Assembly (NCBI RefSeq): GCF_000147815.2
Contig: NC_015957.1
Span: 4,340,001-4,404,000 of the forward strand
Origin: Streptomyces violaceusniger Tu 4113
GTDB lineage: Bacteria > Actinomycetota > Actinomycetes > Streptomycetales > Streptomycetaceae
Length of the DNA stretch: 64,000 nt
Direction of reading: 5' to 3'
Shown here piece by piece: positions 18,496 through 39,764 of the stretch (position 1 is the first letter of the stretch; every line of letters starts with the position of its first letter). The notes beneath the pieces were generated by a model. The model saw nothing but the letters and a program-made list of their open reading frames with translations, was not told the origin of the DNA and searched no databases. Made by a program: the position numbers and the translations under genes.

Positions 18496-19875
18496 CTAAC
18501 GGGACTGATCGAAGAGCCAGTCGATGACGACGTCGTTCTCATAGGTCTGTGCCCACGCGAAATGTGGGCTCACCGGCGTCGTTCCGGGTGTGTAGCTCGT
18601 GAACAGCGCATGGCTGCCGGTCCTGCGGGCCCGGTTCAGCAGGGCCCTGGACCGGGCTTCGAACTCCGCTTTCGGCAGGTCGTTGGCCCACTCCCCGCGG
18701 GTGATGGGTGCACCGGCGCTCTCCAGCGCGTTCATCAGCGTCCAGGTGCCGGGCTTTCCGAACCGTCCCTCGCGGTAGGGGACCACCGGGTCGTCGATGG
18801 AGTGATCGGCCCAGATCGGGATGTGCGTGATCCTGTCCATGGTGGACGGGTCGCCCCACCCGGCGGTGGCCAGGGCCGCGGCGAAGGTGTGGGGATGCCT
18901 CGGGAGCAGGTTGAAGATGCCTCGCGCACCCGATGACAGGCCGACGAGATAGCGCCGATCCGCGTCGACGGGGCGCTGCGTTGTGAAGGTGTCGATGAGT
19001 TCGACCAGCGCCGTTCGGACCCTGGGGTCGGTCCAGTCCGTACCGTCGGGTCCGTCCATGGGGCGGGGGAGTGGGATCTGGGGGGCCAGCACGAACGCCG
19101 GGTGCCGACGCTGGCGTTCCGGCTTGGCGAAGGTGACGGCGACGCGATTGGCGGTGAGCTGGGTCATGTTGTTGTCGGCGACCTCGCCGCCGCCGTGCAG
19201 GGTGACGACGAGCGGATACCGGGTGGCCGCGCCCGGACTCCGCACGAACCCTTCCGGCTGGTACAGCCGGAAGGCCAGCTCGAATCCCGTGGAGTCGGTG
19301 AACGATCCCGCCGTCAGGTCGTCCACCACCGGGGTGATGACGTCGTCGTTGCGGATCGCCAACGGACCGGCTGCGAGCACCAGGTCGCCGCCGGGGGTCT
19401 TCACATCGGCAACCTGCCTGACGGCGTAGGCGCGATGGAGCGGCAGCGGATCGGTGCCGGCGGCCTGCGCATTGGCGTCGTCCGGGTCGAGCTCGATGAT
19501 GAGGTATCTGCCCGGACGTCCCGCGTGCGGGAGGTCGTCCGTCCCGGCCACGGTGTTCGGGTAGACCCGGCTGACCGTTCGGGCCGCGCGCTGCCCGCCG
19601 AGGTCGGCGGTGACCTGGAACGCGGAGGGTGGGATGACGCCGCCGCGCAGGTCGATGGGGTTCGCGTAGCGGATGGCGACGGCGGTCACCCGCCAGTTGT
19701 TCCTGGGCGTCACCCGTGTGATGAGGGTGGTCCGCAGAGCGGGACCGGCTCCGGACGCCTTCGGTCGTCCCGGCGCCGGGGCATCGGCTGCCGCGGTGGC
19801 CGCGTTGATCACCATCGACGCGGTGACGGTACCCCCGGCCATGGTGAGCGCCGTACGTCTGGTGATCCGTTTCAT
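18496..19875 (-). CDS. Secreted alpha/beta-hydrolase, PHB-depolymerase-like esterase
   Basis: 459-residue exported esterase. ATG 19875 has GGAGG four bases upstream. The N-terminus (MKRITRRTALTMAGG, then AATAAADAPA) looks like a Tat-type signal with Arg-Arg. Residues ~48-190 form an Ig-like N-terminal domain. The catalytic domain starts near YPLVVTLHGGGEVADNN (about 220-236; oxyanion HGGG). The nucleophile is Ser314 in GLSSG, the acid is likely Asp361/362 in HSIDDPVVP, and the His is 438 in VSPHFAWAQTY. The substrate is unknown; ester or short polyester hydrolysis is likely. It shares a divergent intergenic region with the IclR gene. Confidence 0.82.
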   Translation of the reverse strand: MKRITRRTALTMAGGTVTASMVINAATAAADAPAPGRPKASGAGPALRTTLITRVTPRNNWRVTAVAIRYANPIDLRGGVIPPSAFQVTADLGGQRAARTVSRVYPNTVAGTDDLPHAGRPGRYLIIELDPDDANAQAAGTDPLPLHRAYAVRQVADVKTPGGDLVLAAGPLAIRNDDVITPVVDDLTAGSFTDSTGFELAFRLYQPEGFVRSPGAATRYPLVVTLHGGGEVADNNMTQLTANRVAVTFAKPERQRRHPAFVLAPQIPLPRPMDGPDGTDWTDPRVRTALVELIDTFTTQRPVDADRRYLVGLSSGARGIFNLLPRHPHTFAAALATAGWGDPSTMDRITHIPIWADHSIDDPVVPYREGRFGKPGTWTLMNALESAGAPITRGEWANDLPKAEFEARSRALLNRARRTGSHALFTSYTPGTTPVSPHFAWAQTYENDVVIDWLFDQSR

Positions 19876-20289
19876 GGGTCCTCCGTAAGGTGTCGGGCAG
19901 CCGGAGAGGGCCGGATGTGGAGCCGGCCGTCTGGTGGGGTGAACCGAGGATGAGCCGTACGGTGTGGTGAGCGCCGACACGTGGCCGGGCGGCGTCGTTC
20001 CGGGGGCGAGGCAGGTGGCGGGCGTCGCCCTGCCACGGTGAGTCTCCAAGCCGTGTCCAAGCGGTGTCCAGCATCGGACCGGGATCTGTCGATGCGTCAT
20101 ACGCATCAATCCGGCCGTGTGCTCGGGCGCACCAAGCAAGCGGTTCGACTCCCGCGGTTTTCTTATGCGTAAACGACAGCTTCATATCCGGGGGCGAGGG
20201 GTGGCCGTGTCTCCCCGCACACCCGAAGCTCTTGTTGCATGCATGCCAATACTCTGGCGCACGGCCCTCACCGCCGAAGGGATCGCCAC
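19876..20289. other. Divergent intergenic region esterase/IclR
   Basis: About 410 bases without a convincing gene. It holds the perfect dyad at 20091-20107, a TGCATGCA palindrome near 20234-20246, and a T-arm-like string at about 20147-20163 that is not part of a full tRNA. The promoters of the esterase and IclR genes must lie here. Confidence 0.5.
20091..20107. promoter_or_regulatory. Perfect dyad GATGCGT-CAT-ACGCATC
   Basis: Seven-bp perfect arms around CAT, in the esterase/IclR divergent region, about 215 bases upstream of each start. It is a candidate site for the adjacent IclR regulator. Confidence 0.55.
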
Positions 20290-21081
20290 ATGCGTTCAGC
20301 GCCGCCTCCACCTCCGCCCAGCGGGGCGCCCGCTGAGAAGGAATCAGCCCCCCGCTCGGTGACCGGCCGGGTTCTCAGCGTGCTGGACGCGTTCGCCGGA
20401 GAACGCCGTCGGCTGACTCTCTCGGACATCAGCCGGCGAACCGGAATGCCGCTGGCCACCACGCACCGGCTGGTCGGCGAGCTGTTGTCCTGGGGTGCAC
20501 TCGAACGGAACCGGAACGGCCGCTACGAGATCGGCCTGCACTTGTGGGCGGTCGCTGCCACGGCCCCACGATGGCTGGAACTGAGAGACCTGGCGACGCC
20601 CTTCCTCCGGGGCCTGAACCGGAAGACCGGGGGACAGCAGGTTCGGCTGACGGTGCTGGACGGCATGGAGACGGTGCTCGTCGAGCGGATCGGTGCCCCG
20701 GCCGCCGACGGAGCGGGCGAACCGGTCGGCGGCCGGCGCCCGGCGCACGCCACCGGTGACGGCCTGGTGCTCCTCGCGTACGCCGGGGCGACCGCCCAGG
20801 AACGCTATCTGGCCCACCATGCCCTGACGACCGGTCTGCGGCGCGTGCTCGCCGAGGTGGAGCGGACAGGCTGCGCGGTGAACGGCCGGTGGCCCGGTCC
20901 GGGGTTCAGGGCGTCGGCCGCGGCTCCCGTGCGGGACGCGATGGGCGAGGTCGTGGCCGCGGTGTCCGTCCTCCCGGGGACCTCCGGCGCCGGACAGAGC
21001 GTGCTCGCGCCGGAAGTCAGGGCTACCGGCCGGGCCATCTCCCGAGCGTTGCGTCATCGTCATCGGCAGAACGGCGCGTGA
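20290..21081 (+). CDS. IclR family transcriptional regulator
   Basis: 263-residue regulator. ATG 20290 is used; a longer start at 20239 is possible. After a Pro-rich lead, the winged HTH reads VTGRVLSVLDAFAGERRRLTLSDISRRTGMPLATTHRLVGELLSWGALERN. The IclR effector domain follows (LRGLNRKTGGQQVRLTVLDGMETVLVERIG, then HATGDGLVLLAYA). IclR proteins often sense aromatic acids such as protocatechuate or terephthalate. Lying between two secreted esterases, it is the natural candidate to control them. Followed by a 13-bp-stem terminator. Confidence 0.88.
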   Translation: MRSAPPPPPPSGAPAEKESAPRSVTGRVLSVLDAFAGERRRLTLSDISRRTGMPLATTHRLVGELLSWGALERNRNGRYEIGLHLWAVAATAPRWLELRDLATPFLRGLNRKTGGQQVRLTVLDGMETVLVERIGAPAADGAGEPVGGRRPAHATGDGLVLLAYAGATAQERYLAHHALTTGLRRVLAEVERTGCAVNGRWPGPGFRASAAAPVRDAMGEVVAAVSVLPGTSGAGQSVLAPEVRATGRAISRALRHRHRQNGA

Positions 21082-21187: not shown

Positions 21188-22171
21188 TCAGAACGGGCAG
21201 GTGTCCTGCCAGCGCGTGACCAGGGCCGGGCTGTTCTTGTCCGCTTCCCGCGCGGCACCGCACAGGAACGGGCTGAAGCGGGTGTCGCCGTACAACCAGC
21301 GGCTGAAGAACGACACGATCCACTTGCCCTGCTTGGCCTTGTTGCCGTAGCCGGTCATCGGGCAGAGGTGGTCGCCGGGAACCTCGATGTAGAGCTTCTC
21401 GGCCTGGGACATCGAGTTGTACCAGGGCAGCGCGTAGGTGTTGCCGTGCGCGACGGGGTCGCTCTGACAGGTCATGAAGAAGGTGGGGTCGGTCACTCCG
21501 GAGAAATTCTGATTCGGGTTGTACGGTGCCAGCGGCACGCCCGCCTTGAAGCGGGAGTCGTCCCGGAGGGCCACCATGACACCGCCGCCGCCCATCGAGT
21601 GACCGGCCGCACCGAGTGTGCCGTTCACCTTCCCGTGGATCGGGTTGCCGAAGGCGGAACCGAACGAGATCAACTGGGTACCGGCGGCGCTGATCTGGCG
21701 GCCGCGCGACGCGGGATCGTCGCCCAGCGTATAGGTGCCGACGTTGATGACGACGAAGCCCCAGGAAGCGAGGCGGGGCGTGAGCCACTGCAGGTTCTGC
21801 TGGGTCCCTTGATAGCCCGGCATCAGCACGACGCCCGGGTACGAGCCACTGGCCGTCGGGTAGGTGATGGTGCCGGACCCGTACCCGCTCGGATGGGGAA
21901 CGGTGTAGGTGGCGGTGGCCAGCGGCCCGTTCGTGGCCTCGAGCGAAGCGGCGGTCGGATTCGGGATCGTCGCGAGGACGGCAGCGCTGTCGGTGGACGA
22001 GCCGGTCGCGGGCCTGCTCCGGGGCTGCCGCTCGGCGGCCGCGGTCGGTGTGACGGAGGCGGTCAACAGCGCGGTGGCGAGGGTGGTCGCCAGCACGATC
22101 AGCACGGCCACGGCGCGGGAGCGGGACCGTAACGGTGAAGTCCTTCTGGGCGAACGATGAGTTGGACGCAT
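21188..22171 (-). CDS. Secreted polyester hydrolase (cutinase/PET-hydrolase family)
   Basis: 327-residue exported serine hydrolase. ATG 22171 has GGAGG seven bases upstream; a signal peptide runs to about residue 47 (hydrophobic VAVLIVLATTLATALL, then TAAAE). The catalytic triad is Ser192 (GHSMGGGG), Asp238 (CQSDPVAHG) and His268 (GDHLCP). The oxyanion Tyr120 is in PGYQGTQQN and Met193 follows the nucleophile. The C-terminal disulfide C304-C325 (FLCG, TCPF) is the family one. Cys235 and Cys270 sit three residues before the Asp and two after the His, exactly as Cys203 and Cys239 in IsPETase. The IsPETase positions W159 and W185 are His191 and Tyr217 here. It should cleave aliphatic or aromatic polyesters; PET activity is untested. 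Confidence 0.9.
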   Translation of the reverse strand: MRPTHRSPRRTSPLRSRSRAVAVLIVLATTLATALLTASVTPTAAAERQPRSRPATGSSTDSAAVLATIPNPTAASLEATNGPLATATYTVPHPSGYGSGTITYPTASGSYPGVVLMPGYQGTQQNLQWLTPRLASWGFVVINVGTYTLGDDPASRGRQISAAGTQLISFGSAFGNPIHGKVNGTLGAAGHSMGGGGVMVALRDDSRFKAGVPLAPYNPNQNFSGVTDPTFFMTCQSDPVAHGNTYALPWYNSMSQAEKLYIEVPGDHLCPMTGYGNKAKQGKWIVSFFSRWLYGDTRFSPFLCGAAREADKNSPALVTRWQDTCPF

Positions 22172-22287: not shown

Positions 22288-22770
22288 CTAGCCACCCGCC
22301 GCGGCACGGCGCAGCAGTGGGGTGAGGCGGTGCGGCACCAGTTCGCGCATGGCCAGGGCCGTCGTGGTGCGCTCGATGCCGGGGATGGCGAGGATCTGTC
22401 CCGCGATTCCGTACAGGGCCTCCACATCCGTGGCGACCACCCGTATGAGCAGATCCGTCTCACCGCTGAGGCCGAAGACCTCCACGACCTCGTCGATGCC
22501 CGCCAGCGCCTCGGACACCTCGGCCAACCGGTGCTGATGCACCCGCGCGGTGACGAACGCGGTGAGGGGATGGCCCAGCGTCTTCGGGGTGATCCGGCGC
22601 TCGAAGGAGTCCAGCGCGCCGCCCTGTTCCAATCTGGCCACCCGGGCCTGGACGGTGTTGCGGGACAACCCCAGTTGCTCGGCCAGGGCGACGATGGTGG
22701 CTCGTGGATCGGCGGCAAGGGCGAGCAGGATCCGCGCGTCGGTGGCGTCCACGCCTCGCTCATCGCTCAT
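22288..22770 (-). CDS. Lrp/AsnC family transcriptional regulator
   Basis: 160-residue regulator from ATG 22770 (MSDERGVDATDARILLAL). The HTH is VALAEQLGLSRNTVQARVARLEQGGALDSF, followed by the RAM ligand domain (AFVTARVHQHRLAEVSEALAGIDEVVEVFGLSGETDLLIRVVA). Lrp proteins typically sense amino acids. Divergent from the E1-like enzyme gene across a region holding a perfect 17-bp dyad, so it likely regulates that gene. It is not coupled to the polyester hydrolase, which starts 117 bases further on. Confidence 0.9.
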   Translation of the reverse strand: MSDERGVDATDARILLALAADPRATIVALAEQLGLSRNTVQARVARLEQGGALDSFERRITPKTLGHPLTAFVTARVHQHRLAEVSEALAGIDEVVEVFGLSGETDLLIRVVATDVEALYGIAGQILAIPGIERTTTALAMRELVPHRLTPLLRRAAAGG

Positions 22771-22805
22771 AGTGTCCAATCGATGTCTCTCATCCGACTC
22801 GGAGT

Positions 22806-22822
22806 CTGAGCAGAATGCTCAG
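22806..22822. promoter_or_regulatory. Perfect dyad CTGAGCA-GAA-TGCTCAG, Lrp operator candidate
   Basis: A 17-bp perfect dyad 36 bases upstream of the Lrp start. A second, wider pair, GTTGTGC (22837-22843) and GCACAAC (22873-22879), lies further toward the E1-like gene. Both fit cooperative Lrp-type control of a divergent pair. Confidence 0.6.
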
Positions 22823-22924
22823 TCCTACGGGGACATGTTGTGCACCCCAGGGATTATCTGTCTACTGGCAGAGCACAACGTCAAATTTTCGCGGAAGCAA
22901 GGTGCGGACAGTGGGGTGCGCTCT

Positions 22925-25279
22925 GTGACGGTCGTGAACTCGGAGCTGAGGTCAGTCGGCGGCAAGGGCTCGGGCGTTGCCCGGGAGGCGGAGCTCGCCG
23001 CGCTCGAGGCGGTCGAACGGCGCGTGCTGTGGCTGTCCACGGCGATCATCGATCATGCCAACCGGGTGCGGCCGAACCCCTCGGGGCTGAAGGTCGGCGG
23101 TCACCAGGCGTCCAGTGCCTCGATGACCTCGATCATGACGGCGCTGTGGTTCCACGCGCTGACCTCCGAGGACCGGGTGTCGGTCAAGCCCCACGCCTCG
23201 CCCGTGCTGCATGCGATCAACTACCTGCTGGGTGAGCTGGACGAGTCCTACCTGACCACCCTGCGCGCCTTCGGGGGCCTGCAGAGCTACCCCAGCCGGT
23301 CCAAGGATCCCGACCCGGTCGACTACTCCACCGGCTCGGTCGGCATCGGCGCCACCGCGCCCTTGTGGGGTGCCATCGCGCGGCGCTACGCGGAGGGGCA
23401 TTTCGGCGGGGCCGGTACGGGACGGCAGTACTCTCTGCTGGGCGACGCGGAACTGGACGAGGGCGCGATCTGGGAGGCGATCCAGGACCCGATGGTGCCG
23501 GGCCTGGGCGAGGTGGTGTGGGTCGTCGACCTGAACCGGCAGTCTCTGGACCGCGTGGTGCCCGGTATCGCCGCGGAGCGGCTGCGGGGCATGTTCACCG
23601 CGGCCGGCTGGCAGGTGATCAACCTCAAGTACGGGCAGCTCCTGCAGGAGTTGTTCGCACGGCCGGGCGGCGAGGCGCTGCGCGCCCGTATCGACGCCAT
23701 GGGCAACCCCGAATACCAGCGCCTGCTGCGGTGTTCCGCCGACGAATTGCGTGAGCGCCTGCCCGGCACCGGCTCCACGGCCGGGCCGATCGCCGACCTC
23801 ATCGCGCCACTGGACGACGCCTCGCTGCTGGCAGCGGTGCGCAATCTGGGCGGCCACGACATCCGCGCCCTCATGGACGCGTACGACGCCGTCGACGACA
23901 CCCGCCCGACCGTGATCTTCGCGTACACGGTCAAGGGCTGCGGGCTGCCCACCGAGGGCCATCCGCAGAACCATTCCTCGCTGCTGACCGGCGACCAGAT
24001 GAAGGCATTGGCCGACCGCCTGGGGACGGACCTCGACCGCCCCTGGGCGGCCTTCGGGGACGGCTCGCCGGAAGCGGCCCTGTGCGCGGCGGCCGCCGAT
24101 CGGCTGCGCCGCCCCGGACACGCGTCGCGGCGGCCCCCCGAGGTGCCCGCCGACCTGGCCCGCCCGGCACCGACCGGTACCGGCAACACCCAGCAGGCGC
24201 TCGGGCGCGTCCTGCTGGACCTCACCCGGCGGGCGCCGGAGGCGGCGGAACGGATCGTCACCGTCAGCCCCGACGTCAGTTCCAGCACCAATCTCGGTGG
24301 CTGGCTCAACAAGGTCGGGGTGTGGTCGCCGACCGAGCGCCCCAACTGGTTCGCCGACGACGCCGAGACGATCCTGCACTGGCGGGAGCGGCCCACGGGC
24401 CAGCATGTGGAGCTGGGCATAGCGGAGACCAACCTGGTCGGCCTGCTCGGCGAACTGGGCACCACCTGGAGCCGCTGGGGCCAGCCGCTGCTGCCGATCG
24501 GTGTGGTCTACGACCCCTTCGTCAACCGGGCCCTGGAGCCGTGGTCCTTCGGTATCTACGCCGGTGGCCAGTCGATCCTGGTCGGCACGCCGTCCGGCGT
24601 CACGCTCGCCCCCGAGGGCGGTGCGCACCAGTCGATCACCACTCCGTCACTCGGTATCGAGCAGCCCGGCTGTGTCACCTATGAACCCGCGTTCGCGATC
24701 GACACCGAATGGTGTCTGCTCGCCGCGCTCGGCAACCTCGGTCGGCCGGACGGGAGTTCGGCCTACCTGCGGCTGTCCACCCGGCCCGTCGACCAGTCCG
24801 CGGCCGCGGTGCCGACCGACCCGGCCGCGCGTGAGCGCCGCCGCCGGCACGCGGTCGCCGGAGCCTATCGGCTGAGGCAGCACGAGCACCCGGTGGTGAC
24901 CCTCGCCGCGATGGGCGCACTGGTCCCCGAGGCCCTGGCCGCCGCCGACCGGCTCGCCGCCCTCGGCCACGGCGCCGATGTCGTGTGCGTGACCAGCCCG
25001 GACCTGCTCTTCCGCGCGCTGCAGGCCCGCCGCGGCCTGTCAAAGGACCCGACCTGGATCCTCGACCAGGTCTTCCCCGCCGAACGGACCACGCCTCTGG
25101 TCACCGTGCTGGACGGCCACCCGCACACCCTGTCCTTCCTGGGCACGATCCGGAACACGCCCGTCACCACCCTCGGCGTGACCCGGTTCGGCCAGTCCGG
25201 TGCGATCGAGGACGTCTACCGCTACCACGGCATCGACAGCGACGGCATCGTCGCCGCGGCGCTGGACCACGTCGAGTAA
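22925..25279 (+). CDS. Pyruvate-dehydrogenase-E1/transketolase-like thiamine diphosphate enzyme
   Basis: About 784-residue ThDP enzyme with the AceE/transketolase fold. GTG 22925 is used; GTG 22934 is possible and neither has a strong ribosome site. The N-terminal domain shows SGLKVGGHQASSASM, KPHASPVLHAINYLLG, the ThDP/Mg site YSLLGDAELDEGAIWEA and VVDLNRQSLDRV. The second domain holds the catalytic Glu in HVELGIAETNLVGLLGEL and PIGVVYDPFVNRALE. It is shorter than AceE (~890-910), and no E2 or E3 gene is nearby, so it may act alone on a 2-oxo acid. Probably controlled by the divergent Lrp protein. Confidence 0.85.
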   Translation: MTVVNSELRSVGGKGSGVAREAELAALEAVERRVLWLSTAIIDHANRVRPNPSGLKVGGHQASSASMTSIMTALWFHALTSEDRVSVKPHASPVLHAINYLLGELDESYLTTLRAFGGLQSYPSRSKDPDPVDYSTGSVGIGATAPLWGAIARRYAEGHFGGAGTGRQYSLLGDAELDEGAIWEAIQDPMVPGLGEVVWVVDLNRQSLDRVVPGIAAERLRGMFTAAGWQVINLKYGQLLQELFARPGGEALRARIDAMGNPEYQRLLRCSADELRERLPGTGSTAGPIADLIAPLDDASLLAAVRNLGGHDIRALMDAYDAVDDTRPTVIFAYTVKGCGLPTEGHPQNHSSLLTGDQMKALADRLGTDLDRPWAAFGDGSPEAALCAAAADRLRRPGHASRRPPEVPADLARPAPTGTGNTQQALGRVLLDLTRRAPEAAERIVTVSPDVSSSTNLGGWLNKVGVWSPTERPNWFADDAETILHWRERPTGQHVELGIAETNLVGLLGELGTTWSRWGQPLLPIGVVYDPFVNRALEPWSFGIYAGGQSILVGTPSGVTLAPEGGAHQSITTPSLGIEQPGCVTYEPAFAIDTEWCLLAALGNLGRPDGSSAYLRLSTRPVDQSAAAVPTDPAARERRRRHAVAGAYRLRQHEHPVVTLAAMGALVPEALAAADRLAALGHGADVVCVTSPDLLFRALQARRGLSKDPTWILDQVFPAERTTPLVTVLDGHPHTLSFLGTIRNTPVTTLGVTRFGQSGAIEDVYRYHGIDSDGIVAAALDHVE

Positions 25280-38387: not shown

Positions 38388-38600
38388 TTGACTGCTCTCC
38401 CGCCTGAAGGCGGGAGATTCCTGGCTCAGGCCGCCTCCCGGACCGGCGGTCCGGGAGGTCTTATGCCCTCGGCACCAGCCGGGTTCGGACCAGCCCGGAC
38501 GAGCATCACGTGGGCGGAGTTCTTGTCCCTGGGGGATAGGGCTCCGCAGGCGGTGCAGGTGTAGGTACGTTCCGAGAGAGGTAGTGCGTGCTTGGTTCTC
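38388..38600 (-). ncRNA. Predicted TnpB-associated reRNA (omega RNA) and right end
   Basis: In known IS200/IS605 TnpB systems the guide RNA spans the tnpB 3' end and the right end of the element. Here the end shows a 9-bp hairpin (38396-38404 with 38409-38417, loop TGAA) downstream of the stop. A second hairpin with an 11-bp stem lies inside the last codons (38434-38444 with 38448-38458). The sequence after the hairpin, GAGCAGTCAA, resembles known actinobacterial right ends. The 5' limit of the RNA is a guess. Confidence 0.5.
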
Positions 38601-39631
38601 GCTCCGCACCGCGCACAGTCCATGGTGGTGTGCGCAGGGTTCACCAGCCGGATATCCCGCTGGTGCTTGCGGCCCATCTCGATCAGGGCCGCCTTGGTGG
38701 CGCCGATGGCGGCGTCGGCCGCCTTGCGCGCCATCGACGTTTTGGCGAGGAACTTCGGGTGGAAGTCCTCCACCGCGACCGCGTCATGGTCGCGGACCAC
38801 CTTCTTGGCCCATTTGCGGGCGGTGTCCTGCCGCTGCCGGGCGATCTTCTTGTGCAGCTTGGCCGCCTGCCGCTTGGCGGCGCGGTAGCCGTTCGACTGC
38901 GGCCTGCCTTTCGACGCGCGGCGGCGGGCCATCATGCGCTGGTAGCGGCCCAGCTTCGCCATGGCCTTTCCACCGTGTCCGGCGTAGGGGAGGTCGTGGG
39001 CGTCGGAGGTGGTGGTGGCGGTCTCGCGCACGCCCCAGTCCACGCCCAGCACGAGACCGGTTCCGGGAAGCGGCTCGACCTGAGCGGGAACGACGAACGA
39101 CGCGTACCAATGGCCGAGGCTGTCCTGGTAGACACGCACGCTGGACGGGCCGGCGGGAAGCTCGCGCGACCACACGACCGTCACCACAATGCCGCCCGCG
39201 AGATGCAGGCGTCCGTCTTTCAGCCGGAAGCCGCGCCGGGTGTAGTTCAGCGTCGGGGCGGCGTCCCGCTGCTTCTTCCAGCCGGGCATCCCCGCCCGCC
39301 GGCGCACGGGGAGCCGGTCTTTGATGTCCTTCAGCGCCTTCGAGCGGGACCTGCAGAAGTCGCGGATGACCTGCTGCTGAGGAACCGAGGAGCCCTCCCT
39401 CAGCCAGGGGGTGATGCGGCGGGCTTCGGTCAGCATCTTGTCCAGCGCGGCCGGTCCGCACGTCTCCCCGCCCTGGTGGGCCTTCTTTGAACGGGCAACG
39501 CACTCGTTCCACACCCACCGGCACCGGCCCCACTCCGCCTCGAGCGCCGCGCGAGCGCTGGCAGATACACGAAGCCGGTAGGCCCATCGGGCATACCCAG
39601 CGGCCTCGCTTGTCTTCGCCGCCGCCGTCAC
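38426..39631 (-). CDS. tnpB: TnpB, RNA-guided RuvC-like nuclease of an IS200/IS605-family element
   Basis: 401-residue protein from GTG 39631 (TTG 39640 is an alternative). The N-terminal helical/RNA-binding part has YRLRVSASARAALEAEWGRCRWVWNECVA. All three RuvC residues are present: Asp198 in GVDWGVRETA, Glu288 in VAVEDFHPKFLA and Asp369 in LSPRDKNSAHVML. The zinc ribbon has two CxxC pairs (CARCG and CTACG). Length and active site suggest a functional nuclease. No TnpA transposase accompanies it, so it is a solo, probably immobile or trans-mobilised element. It would cut DNA guided by the reRNA at its 3' end. Confidence 0.93.
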   Translation of the reverse strand: MTAAAKTSEAAGYARWAYRLRVSASARAALEAEWGRCRWVWNECVARSKKAHQGGETCGPAALDKMLTEARRITPWLREGSSVPQQQVIRDFCRSRSKALKDIKDRLPVRRRAGMPGWKKQRDAAPTLNYTRRGFRLKDGRLHLAGGIVVTVVWSRELPAGPSSVRVYQDSLGHWYASFVVPAQVEPLPGTGLVLGVDWGVRETATTTSDAHDLPYAGHGGKAMAKLGRYQRMMARRRASKGRPQSNGYRAAKRQAAKLHKKIARQRQDTARKWAKKVVRDHDAVAVEDFHPKFLAKTSMARKAADAAIGATKAALIEMGRKHQRDIRLVNPAHTTMDCARCGARTKHALPLSERTYTCTACGALSPRDKNSAHVMLVRAGPNPAGAEGIRPPGPPVREAA

Positions 39632-39764
39632 AATCGCCAATCCAGCCGAGAGCTATGACAGTTGGGTTTCGGCCTGTGCGCCCTGCCCTGCCACCGTGCG
39701 CGGGAGGAGAGAGATCGAAATCGCCCCATCGGCGGTTCGGCTATCCTTGCCCGGCCTCGCAGGA

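Follow-up and report, generated by a model that had tools for sequence, protein, structure and literature searches.

The 64,000-nucleotide stretch of Streptomyces violaceusniger Tu 4113 DNA analysed here (the window) encodes a PETase-family protein that, judged from sequence alignments, is a member of a distinct actinobacterial clade with a mosaic of features: the active-site cysteine pair and extended loop of type II PETases are combined with the lipase-box histidine of type I enzymes. The natural substrate and the origin of type II PETases become a testable question with a Streptomyces clade that has the cysteine pair and loop of type II and about half of its loci beside catabolic genes hinting at a chemical class; the clade also supplies natural CBM32-PETase proteins together with close relatives that lack the module. 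Fusions of CBMs with PETases are treated as engineering in the available part of a review (PMC10546322). In the available text of the literature searched, which leaves most subscription journals outside, no CBM32-PETase was found, nor any enzyme from Actinobacteria that has the cysteine pair of type II.

The gene and its product

The gene is located on the minus strand, and an ORF check gives 327 codons that begin with the ATG at 22171 and are followed by the stop codon at 21188-21190; a TTG sits one codon 5' of this ATG. Its features are as follows.

21188..22171, minus strand: gene for a PETase-family (PF12740) serine esterase of 327 aa, predicted secreted (ORF list, translation and Pfam)
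22034..22171, minus strand: putative signal peptide, residues 1-46, recognized by eye from a basic N-terminus, a run of hydrophobic residues and an AAA that is followed by ERQ
21965..22033, minus strand: linker, residues 47-69, the site of a CBM32-like domain in most relatives, with weak likeness to the N-terminal ~20 residues of this domain
21191..21964, minus strand: catalytic domain, residues 70-327 (258 residues, a length common to all 34 clade members compared)
21596..21598, minus strand: codon of the nucleophile Ser192 (GHSMG; residue check and alignment)
21458..21460, minus strand: codon of the catalytic Asp238 (residue check and alignment)
21368..21370, minus strand: codon of the catalytic His268 (residue check and alignment)
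21467..21469, minus strand: Cys235 codon, aligned with IsPETase Cys203
21362..21364, minus strand: Cys270 codon, aligned with IsPETase Cys239
21341..21349, minus strand: Tyr275-Gly276-Asn277 codons, opposite Asn244-Ser245-Asn246, the extended loop of IsPETase, in the alignment (loop as defined in the available part of PMC5785972)
21260..21262, minus strand: Cys304 codon, aligned with IsPETase Cys273
21197..21199, minus strand: Cys325 codon, aligned with IsPETase Cys289

The preliminary description of this protein had named Ser192, Asp238, His268, Tyr120, Met193, His191, Tyr217 and the cysteines at 235, 270, 304 and 325, and each of these residues occupies the position assigned to it. A score of 231 bits against the Pfam model PF12740 'PETase' (cut-off 28) places the protein in that family, whereas its 181.8 bits against NCBIfam NF051441 (BHET hydrolase BdeA) fall below the cut-off of 520, so that it is not assigned to BdeA. 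The 11.1-Mb genome contains four PF12740 matches, among which the window gene is the sole strong one, the next scoring 30.9 bits (cut-off 28). According to phmmer, the closest solved structures by sequence are forms of IsPETase and 7cwq, which we take to be BurPL; identity to the Piscinibacter PETase is 43-45%. The protein is predicted to be secreted and to cleave esters.

Cysteine pair and extended loop

Exactly four cysteines are present in the protein. In the alignment, Cys235 and Cys270 fall into the columns of IsPETase Cys203 and Cys239, and Cys304 and Cys325 into those of Cys273 and Cys289. Cys235 precedes Asp238 by 3 residues and Cys270 follows His268 by 2, the same placement that had been read from the sequence beforehand. 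A set of 54 family members was compared, made up of 14 proteins of the clade, four references for type II and 36 others; outside it are 20 of the clade's 34 known members, the weak matches L002-L004 and L030-L034, and those matches that were not turned into loci. In this set, the two active-site columns both hold cysteine in 18 sequences, both hold another residue in 36, and are mixed in none. Because the columns are never mixed and both cysteines are invariant across 30 clade members (alignment A1), the pair is not a product of chance. Most likely, Cys235 and Cys270 form a disulfide adjoining the active site, like Cys203-Cys239 of IsPETase.

Type II PETases are characterized, in the available part of Joo et al. 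2018 (PMC5785972), by an additional disulfide and by a loop 3 residues longer than that of TfCut2. With the loop defined as in that excerpt, the window protein possesses the extended form, 19 residues versus 16 in TfCut2. The gap between His268 and Phe288 equals that of IsPETase, PE-H and BurPL (19 residues), and the phmmer alignments to 8d1d and 8cru contain no gap after the catalytic His. Across the 54-sequence set, the stretch from this His to the next aligned Trp or Phe comprises 19 residues in all 18 proteins with the cysteine pair, as opposed to 16 residues in 35 and 17 in one of the 36 proteins without it; the pair and the 3-residue longer loop thus occur together in 18 sequences and are both absent in 36. 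A missing extended loop, as the preliminary description had it ('no extra loop after the catalytic His'), was rejected by this comparison, and that claim was wrong because the protein shares the 19-residue stretch of all 18 cysteine-pair proteins. The segment corresponding to about residues 136-154 of IsPETase comprises 18 residues in the window protein, 19 in type II enzymes and 15-17 in the others. AlphaFold2 models had a mean pLDDT of 36.2 with a shallow 30-sequence alignment of the window protein and its relatives and of 34.8 with the single sequence, in both cases too low for a usable structure.

Substrate pocket and assignment to type

In IsPETase numbering, Tyr87 and Met161 of the pocket are kept, and the changes are T88Q, A89G, W159H, W185Y, I208V, S214Y, I218W, S238L, N241M and R280L. 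Tyr217, Tyr246, Trp250 and Leu269 of the window protein have no match in either type I or type II. The lipase box is GHSMG (with His191) and not GWSMG, which is given as the type II box in the available part of PMC12442448. Position 238, at which Phe or Tyr denotes type IIa and Ser or Thr type IIb (PMC5785972 and PMC10546322, from the parts available), is occupied by Leu269, and all 30 rows of the clade alignment have Leu there, so the protein falls into neither class. Likewise, subsite I of type II (Tyr87, Met161, Trp185, Ile208) is incomplete, with Tyr217 and Val240 replacing the Trp and the Ile. For type I, His159 is present, yet the extra cysteine pair, the extended loop and the Leu at 238, where type I has Phe or Tyr, do not fit; for type III, defined by GHSQG and no active-site disulfide, the GHSMG box and the active-site cysteine pair do not. 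As aligned, this combination of residues matches none of types I, IIa, IIb and III.

With the type II enzymes IsPETase (IIb), PE-H (IIa) and BurPL, the window protein has in common the cysteine pair 203/239, the loop of equal length, the triad, the C-terminal cysteine pair and Met161, and it shares Tyr87 with IsPETase. It differs from them in its lipase box and at positions 185, 208, 214, 218 and 238, has one residue fewer ahead of the catalytic His, and is actinobacterial, with a CBM32-like domain in most of its relatives. The GHSMG box, the triad and the C-terminal cysteine pair are shared with type I enzymes (LCC, TfCut2 and Streptomyces relatives), but LCC, TfCut2 and the remaining proteins of the comparison have no extra cysteine pair, and their stretch after the His is shorter by 2 or 3 residues. 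According to the available part of PMC13396203, the type III enzymes HaloPETase1 and R75estA also have a Tyr at the W185 position; they carry, however, a Gln after the Ser, a Thr opposite the Tyr and disulfides away from the active site, in place of Met193, Tyr120 and the active-site cysteine pair of the window protein. As far as the available texts go, SM14est is a type I enzyme with no disulfides (PMC6779837), BgP resembles type I and carries a single disulfide (PMC9039725), as does a mangrove-soil Streptomyces enzyme (PMC13234336), and the accessible portion of the LipA paper (PMC11169514) does not mention disulfides.

The protein had initially been called intermediate between the two groups. 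In one respect this holds, as a PF12740 enzyme with type II cysteines and a type I lipase-box His is a real mosaic; the type II loop, the grouping with type II in the tree (see below) and a pocket of its own speak against a halfway position.

In IsPETase, the W159H substitution strongly reduced the hydrolysis of both BHET and PET, and the W185A variant retained about 5% of the activity on BHET (PMC5785972, available part). Both positions differ in the window protein, although W185Y is another substitution than W185A, and good PET activity is therefore not to be assumed. These losses bear on the idea that the clade consists of true polyester hydrolases that natively attack a plant polyester, for instance cutin or suberin (or, opportunistically, PET or PBAT), with the CBM32 of the relatives as an anchor to plant cell-wall sugar. 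The PF12740 membership, the cysteine pair and loop of type II, the signal peptide recognized by eye and the CBM32-like domain of the relatives all agree with this idea, which we nevertheless consider doubtful, given the two altered pocket positions and the recurrence, next to the related genes, of a citrate-type symporter and CoA-ester enzymes and not of fatty-acid or aromatic catabolism.

Clade and phylogeny

A scan of genome contigs with the window protein revealed at least 31 related loci, 30 from Streptomyces and one from Nonomuraea; this number is a lower bound because the scan picks up close relatives only. Together with L006 and L007, the clade comprises 33 other loci, all but the Nonomuraea one from Streptomyces or the same genus; the catalytic domains of L006 and L065 are identical, and these two may be one species. 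Across the 30 rows of the clade alignment, identity per column averages 91%. Among 61 genomes (the window's own and 60 relatives), some match was found in 30 and a clade member in three (the own genome, G009 and G026), and the non-clade matches that span most of the domain are at most 41% identical. Eight of 296 wider Actinomycetota genomes had a match at E 1e-10, none of them at clade level beyond the window's own; viral contigs yielded 13 pattern matches and zero relatives, and none of the five matching plasmid records reached 80% query coverage.

In the phylogenetic tree, the clade is separated by a branch with 100/100 support. It groups with type II PETases, not with the Streptomyces cutinases, at 98/93 when all columns are used and still at 96/91 after removal of the column of Cys203, the Cys239-containing loop and segment 137-151. 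The stem branch of the clade is long (1.81), and two other topologies were not rejected: a type II group that excludes the clade (p-AU 0.52), and the clade constrained to join the 35 other rows that are neither type II nor LCC (9.6 log units worse, p-AU 0.294). Kinship of the clade with type II PETases is thus favoured but not proven. The last of these topologies, the long stem and the type I-like His at position 159 would all suit convergence, in which an actinobacterial lineage of type I cutinases independently gained the cysteine pair and the longer loop. We regard such an origin as rather unlikely, in view of the type II grouping that stays after the very columns in question are removed.

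The CBM32-like domain

In one relative (L043), an F5/8 type C or NedA-like (CBM32) domain (PF00754, PF22633) sits between the signal peptide and the catalytic domain. A full-length CBM32-like domain was detected by phmmer in 23 of the 33 scored clade members and is absent in the remaining 10 (the window protein, L035-L039, L055, L060, L064 and L007), with a 24-bit remnant in L039. L046 was left out of the scoring, its sequence being masked there. In this locus, from an S. violaceus scaffold, the masked stretch (near 5533-5900 of L046) is preceded by the reading CLLYTSL, which by eye looks like a sequencing adapter left in the assembly.

On the tree, presence and absence of the domain require five changes, three of them forced by well-supported branches. 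Because the domain is found in Nonomuraea and a remnant in L039, we infer that it was lost in the short-form members rather than gained late in the others. When the window linker was compared with three CBM-bearing or remnant sequences, its score was equalled by 0-1 of 500 shuffles; in the same test, the corresponding numbers were 0-4 for L035, 16-36 for L036, 0-29 for L038 and 91-417 for L037. The likeness is comparable for L035, smaller for L036 and L038 and absent for L037; for the window linker it is no more than suggestive of a CBM32 stub. A dN/dS of 0.15-0.22 between the window gene and L035-L038 (our own NG86 script) indicates that purifying selection continues to act on the short form.

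The engineered fusions of the available part of PMC10546322 likewise join a sugar-binding module to a PETase-fold enzyme; the fusion in this clade, by comparison, is natural and CBM32-like, and the window copy is without the module. Other PETase-family proteins in genomes of the same order (L016, L026, L027, L028 and L029) carry C-terminal tails resembling ricin-type lectin repeats by eye, which looks like another natural fusion of a PETase with a sugar-binding part.

Gene neighbourhood and proposed function

Two genes adjacent to the PETase gene enter into the comparison of loci.

20239..21081, plus strand: IclR-family regulator, transcribed towards the PETase gene and away from the gene of the second esterase
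18496..19875, minus strand: second esterase (EstA_Ig_like), predicted secreted; probable start ATG 19875, twin-arginine-like leader by eye

The longest ORF of the second esterase begins at TTG 20139. Its product scores 71 bits with EstA_Ig_like and 23.8 bits with a PHB-esterase (depolymerase-like) model whose cut-off is 23. Homologues of this partner esterase were found in the fetched flanks of 27 of the 31 related loci (not in L037, L039, L061 and L063), and an IclR homologue adjoins four (L035, L036, L038 and the Nonomuraea locus L063). Within ~6 kb, the 31 loci encode a CitMHS symporter (15 loci), a family III CoA-transferase (15), a LysR regulator (14) and a CitE-like lyase (5). The symporter gene is located 5' of the esterase gene on the same strand, and the 15 loci that have it also have the CoA-transferase and, in 14 cases, the LysR gene, with conserved order upstream of the esterase. 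CitMHS does not occur within the fetched stretch of the other 16 loci, among them L059, with only 1.7 kb upstream, and the Nonomuraea locus, whose CitMHS is located beyond L063, in L082; in L037, L039 and L061 neither the esterase nor the organic-acid genes are in the fetched stretch. In all four regions that were extended further, Nonomuraea included, the CoA-transferase gene is adjacent to a CitE-like gene, which was recognized by Pfam in L081 and L082 and by eye in L080 and L083. CitMHS scores of 500 and 522 bits are above the curated cut-off of 260. No NCBIfam equivalog scored above its cut-off for the CoA-transferase or the lyase; RipC (itaconate degradation) was the second-best NCBIfam model for the lyase, below cut-off. 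A CoA-transferase and a CitE-like lyase form the set used to catabolise acids such as itaconate and citramalate.

The genome of S. violaceusniger itself has homologues of the CitE, CoA-transferase, LysR and CitMHS genes (66-79% identity; G000:C3:3,911,234-3,915,840, or L089:7235-11841), situated ~445 kb from the PETase gene, so that here the link to organic acids is one of homology, not of position. No partner-esterase match was found in the 20 kb fetched around this set, and the relatives' cluster appears to have been split in this genome. A search of it for the tannase family (MHETase superfamily) returned a single, partial match of 37.7 bits. In Nonomuraea guangzhouensis, by comparison, a tannase-family protein (PF07519, 368 bits; L082:5514-7091, minus strand) is encoded one gene from CitMHS, a possible natural pairing of a PETase with a tannase; the neighbourhood also contains genes for a carboxylesterase, a GH3 glycosidase and, by eye, a sugar ABC transporter.

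The esterase at 27 and the CitMHS and CoA-transferase at 15 of the 31 loci suggest a natural organic-acid ester as the substrate class. We put at about even the chance that this PETase-family esterase, predicted secreted, acts with its partner esterase to free an organic acid from a natural ester and has not evolved for plastic. Under this proposal, the Ser192-Asp238-His268 triad would cleave esters, with Tyr120 and Met193 as the candidate oxyanion hole, and the Cys235-Cys270 disulfide would fix the positions of the extended loop and of the loops that bear the Asp and the His. The aromatic clamp would be rebuilt, with Tyr217 for Trp185 and the bulky Tyr246 and Trp250 for Ser214 and Ile218. A natural ester polymer or a glycoside ester would be cut extracellularly, jointly with the neighbouring esterase, and the organic acid so freed would, in about half of the related loci, be imported by CitMHS and degraded by the co-encoded CoA-transferase and CitE-like lyase. 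In most relatives, the N-terminal CBM32-like domain would bind sugar; the window's lineage lacks this domain, with its enzyme still under purifying selection. Flax-lignan HMG ester and polymalate are conceivable candidates for the substrate.

Much of the same evidence bears on a carbohydrate acyl-esterase, such as a polysaccharide deacetylase or a side-chain esterase, that is guided by the CBM32 and has organic-acid genes nearby by coincidence. A NedA-like galactose-binding domain in L043 and the GH3 glycosidase and (by eye) sugar ABC transporter genes beside the Nonomuraea member are in line with such an enzyme. We find it improbable, as CitMHS and the CoA-transferase (15 of 31 loci) and LysR (14 of 31) recur in conserved order upstream of the esterase, and the CBM32 is absent in 10 of 33 scored members, with the window's short-form group under purifying selection.

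Release of an organic acid from a natural ester thus being the preferred reading, we offer a broader one as a conjecture in which we have considerably less faith: the clade may reveal the natural role of type II-like sites. Its members would be secreted hydrolases, anchored to sugar by the CBM32, that attack a natural ester polymer or an oligomeric glycoside ester whose acid component is a di- or tricarboxylic acid such as citramalate or 3-hydroxy-3-methylglutarate, and the symporter, CoA-transferase and CoA-lyase that use up this acid would be encoded alongside. If true, this would add to types I, II and III a further PETase architecture, with the lipase box of type I, the disulfide and loop of type II, and an aromatic clamp that is packed differently.

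Beside the PETase gene, a gene for an Lrp/AsnC regulator (22288-22779, minus strand) overlaps, on the opposite strand, a transketolase/pyruvate dehydrogenase E1-like ORF (22550-25279, plus strand). Elsewhere in the window, an ORF at 38426-39640 (minus strand) resembles, by eye, a TnpB-type transposon protein.
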